From Rubripirellula lacrimiformis (lineage in GTDB: Bacteria > Planctomycetota > Planctomycetia > Pirellulales > Pirellulaceae), in NCBI RefSeq assembly GCF_007741535.1, contig NZ_CP036525.1:310001-374000 (forward strand): a DNA stretch of 64,000 nucleotides, given 5' to 3'. Below the pieces are notes generated by a model. The model saw only the letters and a program-made list of their open reading frames with translations. It had not been told where the DNA came from and ran no database searches. The position numbers were made by a program, and so were the translations under genes. Positions 25,043 through 54,915 of the stretch are shown piece after piece (the first letter of the stretch is position 1; each line of letters starts with the position of its first letter).

Positions 25043-26266
25043 ATGTGCCATCCCATTCGCGGAAGAACCTTGATGATCCTGCTGCTGTTGCTCGCTTGTT
25101 CGTTTGCTACCGAATCGACGCCTACCGTTTCCGAACTGAATGGTCTGTTGGAATCGGTGCGCCAAACGCATGCACCGGATACTCGCATCGAATTGTGGGA
25201 TGTTCATGTCCATGAAGCACAAGGGACTTGGCAGGTGCGAGGAAACCTGTCCAGCCAGGAAGCGATGGATGCTGTTCAGCGGGCGCTTCAGAAGCGGTAT
25301 CCAGATGTCGACAATCAGCTGGTCCTGCTTCCCGAAGACCAGACCGGATCGTTGGTCAATGCGTTGGTCAACAATTCGGTGATCCATTTGCGCCGAGAAC
25401 CCAGCAGCACCAAAGAACTTGTGACTCAGGCTTTGCTGGGCACGCCTGTCCGGATTCTGAAAACAGAGAGCGGCAAGAGTCTGATCCAAGTTCCCGACGG
25501 ATACCTCGGCTGGGTGAACGCTGCGGAGCTGCATCGTGTTGATCAGGCGGAACTGGACGCCTATAGGGATGCAGAGAAAGTCATTTATACGGTCCAGTCG
25601 GGACGGTCCTACAGTGACCCGGATGTGAACTCGATTCCGATGTCCGACCTGGTCATCGGGAACATGGTTTGCAAGGTTTCAGAGGAGTCTGGGTTCACCC
25701 AGATCCGTTACCCCGATGGGCGTCTGGGGTGGGTGGATAGCGGCGATCTTCTTCCGGCAGTTGCGGTCTTTCATCAACAGACGATGAAGGAACGTCTTGT
25801 TCAAACAGCCCTGAAGTTTCATGGAATTCCTTATCTGTGGGGCGGAACCTCGTCCAAAAACATCGATTGCAGCGGACTGATATGCAACGTCTATTTCATG
25901 AACGGGATCCAGTTGCCAAGGGACGCAAACATGCAGGCCCAAGTCGGCCGGGAACTGACGACCGACTTTGTCGCGGACGCGTTGCAGCCAGGTGATCTGC
26001 TATTCTTTGGCAGGAAGGCAGCGGGGAAAGTGAAACAGAAGGTAAGCCATGTGGCGATGTACATCGGTGATGGGCAATACATTCATTCAGCCGGTTATCG
26101 GGAACGCGTCAGCATCAATAGCATGGACAGCACCCAAGCCAATTTCATCGAGAGCTACCCCGCGATATTCGTGAAAGCTGTCCGGATCGTTGGCGAACCG
26201 CATGATGGTTTTCGGCCCATCCCAGAGAATGCCTTTTACAAAGAAATCATCGGGAGCACAGAATGA
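25043..26266 (+). CDS. Exported NlpC/P60 cell-wall peptidase with SH3-like domains (YkfC-like)
   Basis: The start at 25043 gives a basic n-region, hydrophobic core and lipobox-like LLLAC, suggesting a lipoprotein. ATG 25073, with GGAAG upstream, is the alternative. Two bacterial SH3-like segments (LGTPVRILKTESGKSLIQVP ending GYLGWV; IGNMVCKVSEESGF ending RLGWVD) precede the C40 catalytic domain. The catalytic Cys276 lies in NIDCSGLICN, with His336 in VSHVAMYIGDG and His348 in YIHSAG. By analogy with YkfC it should cut the gamma-D-Glu to diamino-acid bond in muropeptides. Its stop overlaps the next gene's start (ATGA), and that gene is a dipeptide epimerase, matching the ykf peptide-salvage logic. 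Confidence 0.9.
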   Translation: MCHPIRGRTLMILLLLLACSFATESTPTVSELNGLLESVRQTHAPDTRIELWDVHVHEAQGTWQVRGNLSSQEAMDAVQRALQKRYPDVDNQLVLLPEDQTGSLVNALVNNSVIHLRREPSSTKELVTQALLGTPVRILKTESGKSLIQVPDGYLGWVNAAELHRVDQAELDAYRDAEKVIYTVQSGRSYSDPDVNSIPMSDLVIGNMVCKVSEESGFTQIRYPDGRLGWVDSGDLLPAVAVFHQQTMKERLVQTALKFHGIPYLWGGTSSKNIDCSGLICNVYFMNGIQLPRDANMQAQVGRELTTDFVADALQPGDLLFFGRKAAGKVKQKVSHVAMYIGDGQYIHSAGYRERVSINSMDSTQANFIESYPAIFVKAVRIVGEPHDGFRPIPENAFYKEIIGSTE

Positions 26267-27420
26267 AGAATCAACGACGAGTCTTTCTGAAAGGCTTAGC
26301 AACGGCTTCCTTGGCGACCGCACTTCCGTGGACCAAGTGCGCTGCAAAAGAAAAGGACGCGTCCCCCGCGATGGTGCCGGCGGTGATCGGTAGCGGGAAA
26401 ATGAAGCTCAGCTTCCGGCCCTATGAACTGCAGCTAGAACACACCTTTACCGTCGCTGGAAACTCCCGGGACACCACTCCCGTGGTGCTTGTGGAGATTC
26501 AGTACGAGGGACACACCGGCTATGGCGAAGCATCGATGCCTCCCTACTTGGGCGAGTCCCAGGAGTCGGTGATCCGATTTCTTCGCAAGGTGAAGTTGGA
26601 CCAGTTCAAGGACCCCTTTCTGTTGGATGACATTCTGGCGTACGTCGATTCGCTGGACGAAGGCAACCGAGCGGCGAAGGCCTGTGTCGACATTGCCCTG
26701 CATGATCTGATTGGCAAGTTGGTCGACAAGCCGCTTCACAAATTGTGGGGAATCAATCCGGCGAACACACCAATGACCTCCTTTACCATCGGGATCGACA
26801 CCCCGGAAATGGTCAAGAAAAAGACAGCAGAGGCTGCCCGATTCAAGGTGTTGAAGGTCAAGTTGGGCGGAGGGAATGACCGGGAAATGATCCAGTCCGT
26901 GCGTTCGGTGACGGACGTGCCCATCTATGTGGATGTGAACCAGGGCTGGAGCGATAAGCATCAGGCATTGGACATGGTGCACTGGTTGGCAGAACAGGGC
27001 ACTGAGTTTGTGGAGCAGCCGCTCCCCAAAACTGCGGTCGCCGATTTGACTTGGTTGACAGCCAACAGCCCCCTACCCATCATCGCCGACGAAGCCTTTC
27101 AGCGGCTAGGCGACATCGCTGCTTTCCAGGGCGTCTACTCCGGCATCAATATCAAACTGATGAAGAGCACAGGGCTGCGCGAGGCTCAGAAGATGATCAC
27201 CGTCGCCCGAGCACTGGACATGAAGGTGATGATTGGATGCATGACAGAGACCTCCTGCGCCGTATCGGCAGCCGCACAATTGTCGCCGCTGGTGGACTGG
27301 GCCGACCTGGATGGGAACCTGCTGATCACCAATGATCTCTACGAAGGAGTGGAGGTGATCGAGGGTAAGTTGACGCTGAACGATTTGCCCGGCATTGGAA
27401 TCCGAAAACGCGACGTCTGA
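26263..27420 (+). CDS. L-Ala-D/L-Glu (dipeptide) epimerase with Tat signal
   Basis: Enolase superfamily, muconate-lactonizing subgroup. KVK at 198-200 and Lys298 (INIKLMK) are the two acid/base lysines. Asp224 (VDVNQGW), Glu251 (FVEQPLP) and Asp276 (IADEAF) are the Mg ligands. The capping domain precedes (about 47-170). The N-terminus QRRVFLKGLATASLATALP is a twin-arginine signal, unlike the cytoplasmic E. coli and Bacillus enzymes, so the folded protein should act outside the cytoplasm. It probably converts L-Ala-D-Glu released from peptidoglycan into L-Ala-L-Glu. It is translationally coupled to the NlpC/P60 gene. Confidence 0.9.
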   Translation: MKNQRRVFLKGLATASLATALPWTKCAAKEKDASPAMVPAVIGSGKMKLSFRPYELQLEHTFTVAGNSRDTTPVVLVEIQYEGHTGYGEASMPPYLGESQESVIRFLRKVKLDQFKDPFLLDDILAYVDSLDEGNRAAKACVDIALHDLIGKLVDKPLHKLWGINPANTPMTSFTIGIDTPEMVKKKTAEAARFKVLKVKLGGGNDREMIQSVRSVTDVPIYVDVNQGWSDKHQALDMVHWLAEQGTEFVEQPLPKTAVADLTWLTANSPLPIIADEAFQRLGDIAAFQGVYSGINIKLMKSTGLREAQKMITVARALDMKVMIGCMTETSCAVSAAAQLSPLVDWADLDGNLLITNDLYEGVEVIEGKLTLNDLPGIGIRKRDV

Positions 27421-27471: not shown

Positions 27472-29195
27472 TCACCAGATGATCCGTTTTGGCGATAGCC
27501 ACAGTTCCCACATCGATATTCAAAAACTTAAACTCGAACTCGAACTTAAACTCGAACTTCCTCCCCGTTTCAAAAACCACGCACCCACCATCCCGCGTGT
27601 TTTGGGTGTGGAGGAAAAGTTCGAGTTCGAGTTTGAGTTCGAGTTTAAGTTCGGTGCAGGAACAAGCAGACAGCCCGGATTCTTCCACTTGATGAGCCGC
27701 TTGGCGATAGCCACAGTTCCTACATCGATATTCAAAAACTTAAACTTAAACTCGAACTCGAACTCGAACTTTCCCCTCCCGTCCCAACAGCCACGCACCC
27801 ACCATCCCGCGTGTTTTGGGTGTGGAGGAAAAGTTCGAGTTCGAGTTTGAGTTCGAGTTTAAGTTGGGTGCAGGAACAAGCAGACAGCCCGGATTCTTCC
27901 ACTTGATGAGCCGCTTGGCGATAGCCACAGTTCCTACATCGATATTCAAAAACTTAAACTCGAACTCGAACTTCCTCCCCGTTTCAACAACCACGCACCC
28001 ACCATCCCGCGTGTTTTGGGTGTGGAGGAAAAGTTCGAGTTCGAGTTTAAGTTCGAGTTTAAGTTCGGTGCAGGAACAAGCAGACAGCCCGGATTCTTCC
28101 ACTTGATGAGCCGCTTGGCGATAGCCACGGTTCCTACATCGATATTCAAAAACTTAAACTCGAACTCGAACTTAAACTCGAACTTTCCCCTCCCGTCGCA
28201 ACAACCACGCACCCACCATCCCGCGTGTTTTTGGTGTGGAGGAAAAGTTCGAGTTCGAGTTTAAGTTCGAGTTTAAGTTCGGTGCAGGAACAAGCAGACA
28301 GCCCGGATTCTTTCACCAGATGAGCCGCTTGGCGATAGCCACGGTTCCTGCTTCGATATTCAAAAACTTAAACTCGAACTCGAACTCGAACTCGAACTCA
28401 AACTCGAACTTCCTCCCCGTCGCAACAACCACGCACCCAAAATCCCGCGTGTTTTGGGTGTGGAGAAAGAGTTCGAGTTCGAGTTTGAGTTCGAGTTTAA
28501 GTTCGGTGCAGGAACAAGCAGACAGCCCGGATTCTTCCACTTGGCGATAGCCACAGTTCCTACATCGATATTCAAAAACTTAAACTCGAACTCGAACTCG
28601 AGCTCGAACTTTCCCCTCCCGTCGCAACAACCACGCACCCACCATCCCGCGTGTTTTGGGTGTGGAGGAAAAGTTCGAGTTCGAGTTTGAGTTCGAGTTT
28701 AAGTTCGGTGCAGGAACAAGCAGACAGCCCGGATTCTTTCACCAGATGAGCCGCTTGGCGATAGCCACGGTTCCTGCTTCGATATTCAAAAACTTAAACT
28801 CGAACTCGAACTTAAACTCGAACTTCCTCCCCGTCGCAACAACCACGCGCCCACCATCCCGCGTGTTTTGGGTGTGGAGGAAAAGTTCGAGTTCGAGTTT
28901 AAGTTCGGTGCAGGAACAAGCAGACAGCCCGGATTCTTCCACTTGATGAGCCGCTTGGCGATAGCCACGGTTCCTACATCGATATTCAAAAACTTAAACT
29001 CGAACTCGAACTTAAACTCGAACTTCCTCTCCGTTTCAAAAACCACGCACCCACCATCCCGCGTGTTTTGGGTGTGGAGGAAAAGTTCGAGTTCGAGTTT
29101 AAGTTCGAGTTTAAGTTCGGTGCAGGAACAAGCAGACAGCCCTGATTCTTTCACCAGATGAGCCGCTTGGCGATAGCCACGGTTCCTACACTCAA
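27472..29195. repeat. Hairpin repeat array 1 (eight units, period 200-214 bp)
   Basis: GGCGATAGCC recurs at 27491, 27703, 27917, 28117, 28331, 28543, 28757, 28957 and 29169, so the periods are 212, 214, 200, 214, 212, 214, 200 and 212. Each unit has a left arm of hexamers (AACTTAAACTCGAACTCGAA type), a middle part with CCTCC and CCACGCACCCA facing TGGGTGTGG and GGAGG, and a complementary right arm (TTCGAGTTCGAGTTTAAGTT type). Farther out, GTTCCTGC faces GCAGGAAC. Each unit can therefore fold into one long imperfect hairpin. Differences between units are mainly hexamer number. The period is not a multiple of three and no frame stays open. It fills the gap between the converging epimerase and beta-propeller genes. 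Confidence 0.92.
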
Positions 29196-29222
29196 CCGGG
29201 GCTATCGCCCCGCCGGCTCATG
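29158..29222. terminator. Capping hairpin at the end of array 1
   Basis: ATGAGCCG and GGCGATAGCC at the end of the last repeat are faced by GGCTATCGCC (from about 29200) and CGGCTCAT (about 29214-29221). A stem of about 18 pairs with a small internal asymmetry can form. There is no T tract. The right arm (CCGGGGCTATCGCC) is the same phrase found at every unit boundary of array 2. It may end transcription coming from either side. Confidence 0.5.
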
Positions 29223-29323
29223 GCGCTATCGCCAAATCATTCCTGCCTGATGGACGACAATCTTTCGGAATTCAAATCGCAATCCATCCCTTATCCAATG
29301 CACTTTGCGCTCCTGACGGATTT

Positions 29324-30805
29324 CTATTCGTCATCGAATTGAAACGAATACAGATCAGCGTCCTTGATGACGAATCGCAGCCGAATCGGTTTTCCGCACA
29401 GCGGTGTGACGTCGCTACCGTGCTTCCAGGTGACCACGCGGTCGATTTCGTTTCCGATCTGTTCCACCGTTTCGGATAGAGCGAAGCCGGGAATCGGTTC
29501 TCCGGAAGCGTCTTGAATCTCCACACGGACACTGCCGGCAGCCGACGTTCCAAAGTTAATCGATAGTTCATGACCGGAAAACGTCAGCGGTTTCGTCAAT
29601 AGTTCGCCGCCGCTATACGGGGCCTGAGCCGACGCGAACCCGTCCAGTCGCATTGAGTATCGGTGCAGGTGTGAGGTGGGTTGTGCATAGTCCTGGTTCA
29701 GATAGACCGACATCTCCGTCGAACCTGTCTGCACGATGTTGAGCGCCGGATAATTGGTTCTCGAAACCCAGTTTTGTGCACCGATTCCTGGGCGAACGAA
29801 TCCACCTAGGAATGTTCGATCATAGAACGGCCCGCCGCGCGAGGTCATCAAGACGGCATCGGAAGTGTCTTTGAAGTACTGCGGTGAAACGTTGATCGCG
29901 TCGGCCTGTGCGTCGGACAGCACTTGCCGCCCCGGCATGAAGCGAGCGGCAACCGAGACGTACAAATGCGGAGCACGGAAATAGGGATGCGTTTGATTGG
30001 TATAGAGATGTTCGATGGGAGCCTCGCCGCCATCGTGCCGGTATTCCATCAACGTGGGTTCGGACCAGTTCAAGAAGTCATCGCTGGTCGATCGGCAGAT
30101 GCGGCGAATCCCGCCTTCGAAGACGCGGAAGTAACACAGGTACTTGTGTTCAGACGCGGACCAAAACGCAACGTTCTGAGAATCGAACATGTAGTTGTAC
30201 GGAACACTCTCTGTGGCGATCACCGGTTCCTCCTGCAACTTTTTCCAGTGAATGCCATCGGGTGAAACCATCGCGATCAGACCGCTGGTCATCGTCCCGC
30301 CGATCGCTTTGAACCGTTCCTGGGCAGGTACTTCGGGACGTGAATCGAGCATGGGGCTGAAGTTGTGGGTCACCGGCGCAGCGTCGGCCAAGACGATGTT
30401 GTTTTTTGTACTGCCCTGGAACTCATAGAGATTCAATTCGGGTTTCGTCCACTGGATGCCGTCTTTGGATTCGGCATAGCAGTACGTTTCGCCGGGATTG
30501 CCATCGACGCCAACTTTCGGGCTGCCGCGGTAATACAGTCGATACAGATCACCGTCCTTGATCACGGTGGCGTATCCGCAGAACAACCCTTCCCACGGCT
30601 GATCGAACTGCAAGGCCACGCCTTCATCACGCGGGCGATTGAGCACCAGGCGAATGTTTTGGAGGTTGTCGATCAGCAGACGATCGACGATCAGTTCACG
30701 ACGACTGCTAATATCGATCACGTCATCGCTGGCACGCAACGGTGAAATGGAGCTGAACGTCAAGGAAGGCAGTAACAGGCAGACCGCAACAGCGAAGACA
30801 CGCAT
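29324..30805 (-). CDS. Exported five-bladed beta-propeller, glycoside-hydrolase-like protein
   Basis: The start at 30805 is chosen because it gives a signal peptide (MRVFAVAVCLLLPSLTFSS, cleavage near LRASDD). The frame continues upstream without family features. The sequence shows the repeated blade pattern of GH32/GH43/GH68-type propellers: YRLYYRGSPKVG, YCYAESKDGIQWTKPELNLY, GLIAMVSPDGIHWKKL and CRSTSDDFLNWSEPTLMEY. A small C-terminal beta-sandwich (VRVEIQDASGEPIPGF ... GKPIRLRFVIKDADLYSFQF) follows. Members are common in planctomycetes and annotated as hypothetical. A carbohydrate-active or sugar-binding role is likely, but catalytic residues cannot be assigned. Confidence 0.8.
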   Translation of the reverse strand: MRVFAVAVCLLLPSLTFSSISPLRASDDVIDISSRRELIVDRLLIDNLQNIRLVLNRPRDEGVALQFDQPWEGLFCGYATVIKDGDLYRLYYRGSPKVGVDGNPGETYCYAESKDGIQWTKPELNLYEFQGSTKNNIVLADAAPVTHNFSPMLDSRPEVPAQERFKAIGGTMTSGLIAMVSPDGIHWKKLQEEPVIATESVPYNYMFDSQNVAFWSASEHKYLCYFRVFEGGIRRICRSTSDDFLNWSEPTLMEYRHDGGEAPIEHLYTNQTHPYFRAPHLYVSVAARFMPGRQVLSDAQADAINVSPQYFKDTSDAVLMTSRGGPFYDRTFLGGFVRPGIGAQNWVSRTNYPALNIVQTGSTEMSVYLNQDYAQPTSHLHRYSMRLDGFASAQAPYSGGELLTKPLTFSGHELSINFGTSAAGSVRVEIQDASGEPIPGFALSETVEQIGNEIDRVVTWKHGSDVTPLCGKPIRLRFVIKDADLYSFQFDDE

Positions 30806-31052
30806 TTTGTAAGGAACCTCGTTTGGGATTTTTACCCACAGCATAGCTCTTCCTCCCGACGCGTATCGTGCTGTGACGCAACGATCCTCGTCGTCTTTGG
30901 GGGCCTTGGCTTCACCGCGACATCCTGGCTTCAAAAAATGCGAGTCAGCGGTCTGATACTGACCTAGGTTTTAGATAAGCGGACGGTCCGGCGGTCCGAT
31001 TTGCCTTTCCCCCATTTGTTTGTGTCGGTCATCCGGATTGCAACGGCGTTTG

Positions 31053-52489: not shown

Positions 52490-54915
52490 ATGAAGCGGGC
52501 GAATCCTGGCTACCAGTTTATTCCTGCACCGAACTTGAACTTGAACTCGAACTTGAACTTGAACTCGAACTTGAACTTGAACTCGAACTTCTTCTCCACA
52601 CCTGGAACACGCGGGGACGCACCTCCGCTAGCGTCAGCATGTGTGATGTCAATTGAACGGCCGGCTTGGGTGGGACGATGTTGTACGGGGAAGGAAGTTC
52701 GAGTTCGAGTTTAAGTTCGAGTTTAAGTTTTTGGACTCGGTATTTGGTCTGCAGGAATGAGCCATTTGTCGTTTGGATGCTAGGACCGGTCTGGTCCCGC
52801 AAAAACCGGGGCTATCGCCCGACGGCTCATGAAACGGACGAATCCTGGCTGCCAGCTTATTCCTGCACCGAACTTGAACTTGAACTTCTTCTCCACACCG
52901 ACAACACGCGGGGACGCACCTCCGCTGGCGTCAGAATGTGTGATGTCAATCGAACGGTCGGCTTGGGTGGGGCGATGTTGTGCCGGGAAGGAAGTTCGAG
53001 TTCGAGTTCGAGTTCGAGTTTAAGTTCGAGTTTAAGTTTTTGGACTCGGTATTTGGTCCGCAGGAATGAGCCATTCGTCGTTTGGGTGCTAGGGCCGGTT
53101 TGGTCCCACAAAAACCGGGGCTATCGTCCGACGGCTCATGAAGTGGGCGAATCCTGGCTGCCAGCATATTCCTGCACCGAACTTGAACTCGAACTTGAAC
53201 TCGAACTCGAACTTCTTCTCCACACCGACAACACGCGGGGACGCACCTCCGCTGGCGTCAGCATGTGTGATGTCAATCGAACGGGCGGCCTGGGTGGGGC
53301 GATGTTGTGCGGGGAAGAAAGTTCGAGTTTAAGTTCGAGTTTAAGTTTTTGGACTCGGTATTTGGTCCGCAGGAATGAGCCATTCGTCGTTTGGGTGCTA
53401 GGGCCGGTTTGGTCCCGCAAAAACCGGGGCTATCGCCCGACGGCTCATGAAACGGACGAATCCTGGCTACTAGTCTATTCCTGCACCGAACTTGAACTTG
53501 AACTCGAACTCGAACTCGAACTTGAACTCGAACTTCTTCTCCACACCGACAACATGCGGGGACGCACCTCCGCTAGCGTCAGCATGTGTGATGTCAATCG
53601 AACGGCCGGCTTGGGTGGGGCGATGTTGTACGGGGAAGGAAGTTCGAGTTTAAGTTCGAGTTCGAGTTTAAGTTTTTGGACTCGGTATTAGGTCTGCAGG
53701 AATGAGCCATTCGTCGTTTGGATGCTAGGACCGGTTTGGTCCCGCAAAAACCGGGGCTATCGCCCGACGGCTCATGAAGTGGGCGAATCCTGGCTACCAG
53801 CTTGTTCCTGCACCGAACTTGAACTCGAACTTGAACTCGAACTTCTTCTCCACACCTGGAACACGCGGGGACGCACCTCCGCTGGCGTCAGCATGTGTGA
53901 TGTCAATCGAACGGGCGGCCTGGGTGGGGCGATGTTGTGCGGGGAAGGAAGTTCGAGTTCGAGTTTAAGTTTTTGGACTCGGTATTTGGTCCGCAGGAAT
54001 GAGCCATTCGTCGTTTGGGTGCTAGGGCCGGTTTGGTCCCGCAAAAACCGGGGCTATCGTCCGACGGCTCATGAAGTGGGCGAATCCTGGCTGCCAGCTT
54101 ATTCCTGCACCGAACTTGAACTCGAACTCGAACTTGAACTCGAACTTCTTCTCCACACCTGGAACACGCGGGGACGCACCTCCGCTGGCGTCAGCATGTG
54201 TGATGTCAATCGAACGGGCGGCCTGGGTGGGGCGATGTTGTGCGGGGAAGGAAGTTCGAGTTCGAGTTTAAGTTTTTGGACTCGGTATTTGGTCCGCAGG
54301 AATGAGCCATTTGTCGTTTGGATGCTAGGACCGGTTTGGTCCCGCAAGAACCGGGGCTATCGTCCGACGGCTCATGAAGTGGGCGAATCCTGGCTGCCAG
54401 CTTATTCCTGCACCGAACTTGAACTCGAACTTGAACTCGAACTCGAACTTCTTCTCCACACCGACAACATGCGGGGACGCACCTCCGCTAGCGTCAGCAT
54501 GTGTGCTGTCAATCGAACGGCCGGCTTGGGTGGGTCGATGTTGTACGGGGAAGGAAGTTCGAGTTTAAGTTCGAGTTCGAGTTTAAGTTTTTGGACTCGG
54601 TATTAGGTCTGCAGGAATGAGCCATTCGTCGATTGGATGCCAGGGCCGGTTTGGTCTCGCAAGAACCGGGGCTATCGCCCGACGGCTCATGAAGTGGGCG
54701 AATCCTGGCTACCAGCTTATTCCTGCACCGAACTTGAACTCGAACTTGAACTCGAACTCGAACTTCTTCTCCACACCGACAACATGCGGGGACGCACCTC
54801 CGCTAGCGTCAGCATGCTTGCTGTCACTTGAACGGTCGGCTTGGGTGGGGCGATGTTGTGCCGGGAAGGAAGTTCGAGTTTAAGTTCGAGTTCGAGTTTA
54901 AGTTTTTGGACTCCG
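52490..54915. repeat. Hairpin repeat array 2 (eight units, period 297+6n bp)
   Basis: GAATCCTGGC recurs at 52501, 52840, 53149, 53458, 53785, 54082, 54385 and 54700, so the periods are 339, 309, 309, 327, 297, 303 and 315. All equal 297 plus a multiple of six. Each unit has CCGGGGCTATCG, GACGGCTCATGAA, TTCCTGCACCGAA, a left hexamer arm (CTTGAA/CTCGAA runs), a central part (CTTCTCCACAC ... ACGCGGGGACGCACCTCCGC), a right arm (GTTCGAGTTCGAGTTTAAGT type), TTTTTGGACTCGGTATT and GCAGGAATGAGCC. The arms pair to give long hairpins. The last unit is cut after the right arm. It fills the gap between the converging DUF1559 and VWA genes. Array 1 on the opposite strand is the same family. Confidence 0.92.

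Follow-up and report, generated by a model that had tools for sequence, protein, structure and literature searches.

Array 1, a run of eight tandem hairpins at 27472-29195 of the 64,000-nucleotide stretch of Rubripirellula lacrimiformis DNA that was analysed here (the window), is probably, at a rough 60%, a tandemly amplified and gene-less relative of a dispersed mobile cassette that carries an IVP gene, i.e. a non-autonomous, MITE-like form with a six-base repeat word. This reading is built on the observed architecture of the array, on the frequent occurrence of complementary arms beside PF05635 genes, on a matched site that is filled in some genomes and empty in others, and on the presence of gene-less tandem copies in two genomes.

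A full cassette would consist of a left short-repeat arm, a PF05635 (S23/IVP) gene and a complementary right arm, and should as a whole be able to fold so that its gene is looped out from a stem, similar to the intervening sequence (IVS) of 23S rRNA but outside rRNA. In a minimal copy, a T-arm would be followed, after a spacer of 21-35 nt, by an A-arm. The AACTYR-type hairpins of R. lacrimiformis, without an IVP gene among the matches listed, could represent such gene-less forms, and the array may have grown via tandem duplication of a hairpin together with half of a REP-like palindrome. For the mode of movement and for a possible function of the array, we infer the following. The IVP would help the cassette to move, perhaps via binding of its folded RNA in a manner likened to Avd, a distant relative of IVP that binds RNA, and gene-less copies would use the IVP in trans. 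Convergent gene ends may then be the safest place for insertions to persist, the harm being least there.

Structure and surroundings of the array

Repeat finding and arm mapping resolved array 1 into eight head-to-tail units of 200-214 bp each at 27489-29190 (TRF: period 214, 8.1 copies, 88% matches) and, together with folding, confirmed the eight tandem large imperfect hairpins that a first-pass annotation had described. Each unit is composed of an A-arm of AACTYR repeats, a loop of about 60 nt with a stem of its own and a T-arm of AGTTYR repeats. The arms are runs of the hexamers CTYRAA and TTYRAG, mostly 34 nt in length, and the units vary by whole hexamers; the exact runs are separated by 59-73 nt, where the 73 nt relates to unit 6, in which one hexamer is mutated. 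The hairpins, each starting with its A-arm, are located at 27525-27651 (unit 1; A-arm 27525-27558, loop 59 nt, T-arm 27618-27651), 27737-27865 (unit 2; A-arm 27737-27770, T-arm 27832-27865), 27951-28065 (unit 3; A-arm 27951-27972, T-arm 28032-28065), 28151-28279 (unit 4; A-arm 28151-28184, T-arm 28246-28279), 28365-28503 (unit 5; A-arm 28365-28410, the longest arm of the array, T-arm 28470-28503), 28577-28705 (unit 6; A-arm from 28577, including the mutated hexamer, T-arm 28672-28705), 28791-28905 (unit 7; A-arm 28791-28824, T-arm 28884-28905) and 28991-29117 (unit 8; A-arm 28991-29024, T-arm 29084-29117). The unit periods are 212, 214, 200, 214, 212, 214 and 200, as had been annotated before, followed by a last unit of about 200 rather than 212. 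The inner stem words annotated at the same time, CCACGCACCCA and TGGGTGTGG, were found in the array as well.

Folding of the units and of their reverse complements, which had been proposed as a check, was carried out for units 1 and 4. On both strands very stable RNA folds of -62 to -69 kcal/mol were obtained (z-scores of -11.0, -7.9, -8.6 and -7.6), and in each of the four tests 0 of 200 shuffles was equally good. Moreover, a consensus stem is common to all eight units. The array is not a chance pattern. The units are 84-98% alike in pairwise comparison, and it is from this likeness that a tandem duplication of the unit is deduced. The earlier suggestion that a block of 212-214-200 was itself duplicated appears doubtful, as the identity between unit i and unit i+4 is 0.91, 0.94, 0.93 and 0.90, versus 0.977 for the best pair, formed by units 4 and 6.

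A coding origin of the array was rejected: the ORFs that cross the repeats are read-outs of the hexamers and the gene caller placed no gene there. A conserved structured RNA is not supported either. The compensatory changes between the arms, the lack of which would speak against the hairpin description by the terms of the first-pass annotation, were hardly seen within the array (1 of 42 pairs, with an unfavourable covariation term), there was no excess of them across loci at the two variable positions per hexamer, and Rfam gave no match in the window or in seven further loci. In fact, the arms of the same hairpin show fewer Watson-Crick matches than shuffled partners do, both for 31 T-A pairs (33.9% versus 47.3%) and for 33 A-T pairs (47.5% versus 56.9%). 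The mismatched hexamer cells are often G-U in one strand; no significance is drawn from this, because there are two arm flavours, each perhaps of single origin.

The left neighbour of array 1 is a gene of the enolase superfamily (MR_MLE) at 26263-27420 on the forward strand, which ends 105 bp before the first arm, and the right neighbour is a convergent ORF of 536 amino acids at 29324-30934 on the reverse strand, with a weak GH32-like match below the cut-off. Within the array, the segment of 85 nt that leads from a T-arm to the next A-arm (27652-27736, forward strand) contains half of a REP-like palindrome (GAGCCGCTTGGCGATAGCC) and recurs between the units. At the end of the array, a terminal REP-like half is followed by its other half (29141-29243), and this site is seen in hexamer-less form in Rhodopirellula maiorica SM1. 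There, the epimerase is 88% identical to the left-neighbour epimerase of array 1 and a similar palindrome is found downstream of its gene, with no hexamer arm in the fetched locus, which suggests that the REP-like palindrome was probably the place where the hexamer hairpins arrived or expanded in the lineage of array 1. For target-site duplication, this single hexamer-less site was compared for one hexamer locus and gave no clean ends.

The left-neighbour gene itself is dipeptide-epimerase-like, and after R. maiorica (88%) its relatives include MAGs of Bacteroidales with 81-83% amino-acid identity. Judged from these sequences it is a candidate for gene transfer.

PF05635 genes between complementary arms

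A direct connection between the hexamer arms and a protein was found in a congener (G021), in which a PF05635 four-helix-bundle gene (75.5 bits; it also matches TIGR02436) is flanked by an AACTYR hairpin on either side, with the T-arm first, then the gene and then the A-arm. Gene-less tandem T-A hairpins occur elsewhere in this congener, in the form of two 97-nt copies that are 98% alike. The initial impression that the array resembles no repeat class was incomplete in this respect, and the related statement, that no protein or mobile-element gene explains it, holds for the absence of a called gene in the array but not for the link with PF05635. The direct AACTYR-PF05635 link consists of one locus in one draft genome, which counts against the cassette reading. 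It likewise counts against this reading that in R. lacrimiformis no IVP gene was found near the hexamer arms among the matches listed, where the shortest distance between a PF05635 gene and a hexamer arm is 139.9 kb. The genome has two PF05635 genes, both of them between heptamer arms of the ATTGCAA type. The ATTGCAA-type heptamers also form tandem hairpin arrays of the same plan in this genome, at 2094075-2096753 (L296), 5721942-5723242 (L297) and 2536091-2538350 (L298). Taken together with the hexamer arrays, one genome thus has two words with one architecture.

The association between PF05635 genes and complementary arms appears to be common among the relatives. PF05635 matches numbered 117, distributed over 31 of 60 genomes (R. 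lacrimiformis included), and the flanks were analysed for 71 of these (2 from R. lacrimiformis and 69 from relatives), comprising the automatic loci and the higher-scoring rest; one locus (L207) had too little flank and was excluded, and the weaker matches beyond these fell outside the set. The arm score was taken from an alignment between the 250 nt before each gene and the reverse-complemented 250 nt after it, and shuffled flanks, ordinary genes of R. lacrimiformis and mock genes served as controls. A score of at least 16 was obtained for 41 of the 71 genes and of at least 13 for 50 (median 18), versus 19 and 53, respectively, out of 1402 shuffled partners of the same flanks (median 9). The score reached 16 in 0 of 123 ordinary genes and in 1 of 185 mock genes; of these two controls, the mock one alone is affected by 14 IVP loci that were in the wrong orientation. 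The 30 genes with a score below 16, which count against the cassette reading, include 21 below 13, which have no arms by this test.

The arms of the 41 positive cassettes have a best period of 7 in 67 of 82 cases, versus an expectation of 8.6 for shuffled arms, and in 37 of the 41 G outnumbers C in the left arm. The repeat word varies between cassettes, and the congener cassette (L168) scored 12 (left) and 6 (right) in the arm-period test. Array 1 has the complementary degenerate short-repeat arms of the IVP cassettes, a class defined here, but a period of 6 instead of 7; this difference from the mostly heptameric arms of the cassettes counts against the cassette reading. It also has the terminal inverted repeats with a long stem that characterize the IVS of 23S rRNA. 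An S23/IVP ORF, as found in the latter, is absent from array 1, and the congener locus with the same arm type has one. A location in 23S (or 16S) rRNA was rejected, since array 1 is intergenic between protein genes and the window has no Rfam match.

Filled and empty sites and plasmid cassettes

A comparison of the gspE-gspF junction in 18 genomes revealed a cassette in 3 congeners and only a short spacer in 11 genomes, including R. lacrimiformis, whereas the junction was not read in 4. These filled and empty sites support the mobility of the cassette. Among 70 other PF05635 proteins, the two nearest to the copy at this junction in G021 are the copies at the same site (67-68% amino-acid identity), which are 93% alike to each other. 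The G021 cassette has a word of the TTAGCGA type and the other two have one of the CAGGTTA type. The finding of the nearest proteins at the same site with different words implies that either the repeat word was replaced in arms that remained complementary, or the site was occupied on two separate occasions. Alternatively, the complementary arms may serve as entry sites for IVP genes and not be the ends of the cassettes themselves.

A tblastn search of plasmids for IVP genes, which reached beyond the phylum, yielded 30 records, mostly from cyanobacteria, and 18 of these (16 cyanobacterial and 2 others) were analysed; outside the set were apparent duplicates (H5, H8, H18), H21 and weak or partial records (H23-H30). 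The arm score was at least 16 in 9 of the 18 and at least 13 in 11, and below 13 in 7. The corresponding numbers were 13 and 40 out of 683 for shuffled controls and 2 and 4 out of 152 for mock genes. In the 11 loci with a score of at least 13, 16 of the 22 arms had a best period of 7 and the other 6 a best period of 8. The positives include one alphaproteobacterial and one gemmatimonad plasmid.

Several of the cyanobacterial plasmid IVP genes (L279, L280, L285, L287) were seen between operon genes such as cas6/cas4 and cmr2/cmr3, and between ribonucleotide reductase subunit genes. In addition, two four-helix-bundle genes are counted among 24 genes unique to one cyanobacterial strain in a genome paper (PMC8700078).

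Dispersed hexamer hairpins and their possible origins

The hexamer arms are not restricted to array 1. The window contains a second array (52530-54905), located between convergent genes, whose eight units measure about 303 bp and carry arms of this kind too. The search of the genome and of relatives that had been proposed for the arm model showed that the element recurs in the genome and in one congener. In the genome of R. lacrimiformis, a single contig of 8.54 Mb, a 28-nt arm pattern gave 385 and 348 matches on the two strands (733, overlaps counted), versus 36 and 28 for the reversed pattern, a control that is partly confounded since one hexamer variant reads the same when reversed. The pattern was present in 3 of 117 genomes, namely R. 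lacrimiformis, one of the 21 congeners (38 matches) and one genome of another genus (1 match), many of the relatives being draft assemblies that may lack repeats.

Among the matches listed, 49 stretches and the window were inspected as hexamer loci, with 54 arm clusters. In many of these clusters, 21-35 nt of spacer separate a T-arm from the A-arm that follows it, and the others are arrays or single arms. Similar elements elsewhere, the absence of which would have weighed against the first-pass annotation, are represented by 53 other clusters and by the congener. Two further observations were made in these and related loci. A third fold-back class (CCCTCTCCCCC...GGGGGAGAGGG) is interleaved with hexamer or heptamer repeats in L038 (6052800-6053300 of the R. 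lacrimiformis genome), L298, L299 and L304. At 6620256-6621767 of the same genome (L043), a hexamer hairpin is interrupted by about 1.5 kb of inserted DNA, which has inverted ends (ACCGCTAAATTAGCG-like) and a called gene of 328 amino acids.

The genomic context of the clusters is biased. Out of 53 clusters among the matches listed (one of the 54 could not be classed), 27 lie between convergent genes, 18 between tandem and 8 between divergent genes. For comparison, the remaining gaps of these loci with a length of 100 bp or above, as derived by subtraction, are convergent in 15 out of 131 cases (Fisher p 3.6e-8). All gene calls are those of a codon-usage caller and not a standard annotation. 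Moreover, the five arrays with at least 10 arms among the matches listed are all between convergent genes. Together with the high stability of the RNA stems that the folded units form on either strand, this bias argues for hairpins selected as bidirectional transcription barriers between convergent genes, of which copies have spread by insulating their neighbours. The location of array 1 between convergent genes indeed fits the role of terminator or insulator that the first-pass annotation had put forward. Nevertheless, we regard such a barrier as unlikely. Array 1 has no surplus of terminator-like motifs (a stem followed by a T-run), with 2 found versus 2.8 expected, and base-pair covariation is not supported either within the array or across loci. 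In addition, 26 of the 53 clusters among the matches listed are not convergent, including the 8 divergent ones, and the 15 clusters of the heptamer type, 3 of which are beside IVP genes, comprise 9 tandem, 4 convergent and 2 divergent cases.

The simplicity of the arms, which reach 184 nt of plain hexamer repeats among the matches listed, and the variation of the units by whole hexamers are what would be expected from a neutral satellite, i.e. a chance inverted repeat that was expanded by slippage and unequal exchange without a mobile element. Such an origin is decidedly improbable, as there are more than 50 dispersed clusters that share a recurring 34-nt word and, by eye, a recurring spacer, which requires dispersal and not local slippage alone. 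Neither does a satellite agree with the finding that 0 of the 54 clusters among the matches listed are contained in a called gene.

The half palindrome of the GATA type in the units of array 1 is REP-like, and 32 of 38 such palindromes in the fetched loci are within 300 bp of a hexamer arm, in loci that were chosen for their hexamers. Movement as REP/REPIN-type elements by a RAYT (Y1 transposase) is disfavoured, however, and has very little probability: R. lacrimiformis has five Y1_Tnp matches (4 over the cut-off), and in the roughly 1.5 kb on each side of these neither type of arm (hexamer or heptamer) nor the palindrome is present. Finally, long repeats are a known assembly risk, but nothing points to an assembly or sequencing artefact, and one is very unlikely given the single 8.54-Mb contig, the divergence of the units, the related hairpins in another genome and the arms that recur at 53 other clusters among the matches listed.

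Implications for short-repeat elements

The derivation of array 1 from an IVP cassette can be extended to a broader proposal, which we put forward only tentatively and would ourselves sooner doubt than accept. The S23/IVP proteins may be the partner of a whole class of fold-back elements, in which many of the 6- and 7-base repeats of cyanobacteria, Xanthomonas and other bacteria would be arms or footprints of cassettes, the IVS of rRNA would be those elements whose landing site was rRNA, and array 1 and its like would be gene-less copies served by the IVP in trans. Short tandem repeats of 6 or 7 bases have been known for decades in these organisms, among them the STRRs, the heptameric short repeats of cyanobacteria. 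The heptameric repeats are without an agreed origin and the mobility of the 23S rRNA IVS is unsettled. No report that joins PF05635 genes with short-repeat arms was found in the open-access PMC literature, and S23p proteins are described as being without known function in the Coxiella study (PMC4990558). If the association holds more widely, the function of S23p, the origin of the heptamers and the mobility of the IVS become one question with one testable partner protein. Long tandem hairpin arrays would, if it is true, gain an origin other than regulation.

Comparison with known systems

The elements of the REP/REPIN-RAYT system resemble the hexamer hairpins in being dispersed intergenic palindromes, some of which are close together in opposite orientation, but they have short tagged stems, at least in the sections of the source considered (PMC3733652), whereas the arms described here are long and of low complexity and have no RAYT linked to them. 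A weak profile similarity to the DGR accessory protein Avd was seen for one of three IVPs that were scanned, that of cassette L182 (NF033474, 29.5 bits; bAvd, 22.7 bits; both below the cut-off), and the two others gave no Avd match at an E-value of 0.01. The L182 protein matched the solved structures 2GSC (XCC0516) and 2RLD.

The TAACTGA repeats of the Beggiatoaceae are likewise intergenic heptamers with a patchy distribution between lineages, and a mobile TAACTGA-binding protein has been raised as a possibility. They differ in being direct rather than inverted repeats, with one inverted exception, and S23 is unmentioned in the passages available (PMC4679880). The heptamers GGGAATC and GGGGA(C/T)T of Xanthomonas and Nostoc have in common with array 1 that they are intergenic, degenerate repeats of short period, as are the cyanobacterial STRRs; the arms of the IVP cassettes are mostly heptamers too, whereas the word of array 1 has a period of 6. 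According to the accessible parts of the study concerned (PMC4692102), inverted pairs number 70 in Xcc and 75 in Xac, no general association with mobile elements was observed and S23 proteins go unmentioned. For Nostoc the same parts describe only few inverted pairs, which weakens the broad reading of the S23/IVP proteins, and none of the repeats on plasmids.

The closest parallel is with the IVS of Coxiella. Array 1 differs from it in being located outside rRNA, gene-less and tandem, with a hexamer word. In the Coxiella study (PMC4990558), the IVS is called a selfish element, with inverted ends that form a 28-bp stem, an S23p ORF and excision by RNase III; an early proposal of IVS mobility is cited, and tandem heptamers GACAGAT, varying in number between strains, are found just upstream of the ORF. 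The likeness to the array and the cassettes accordingly comprises the terminal inverted repeats with a long stem, the S23p ORF inside, the short tandem repeats and the sporadic distribution.
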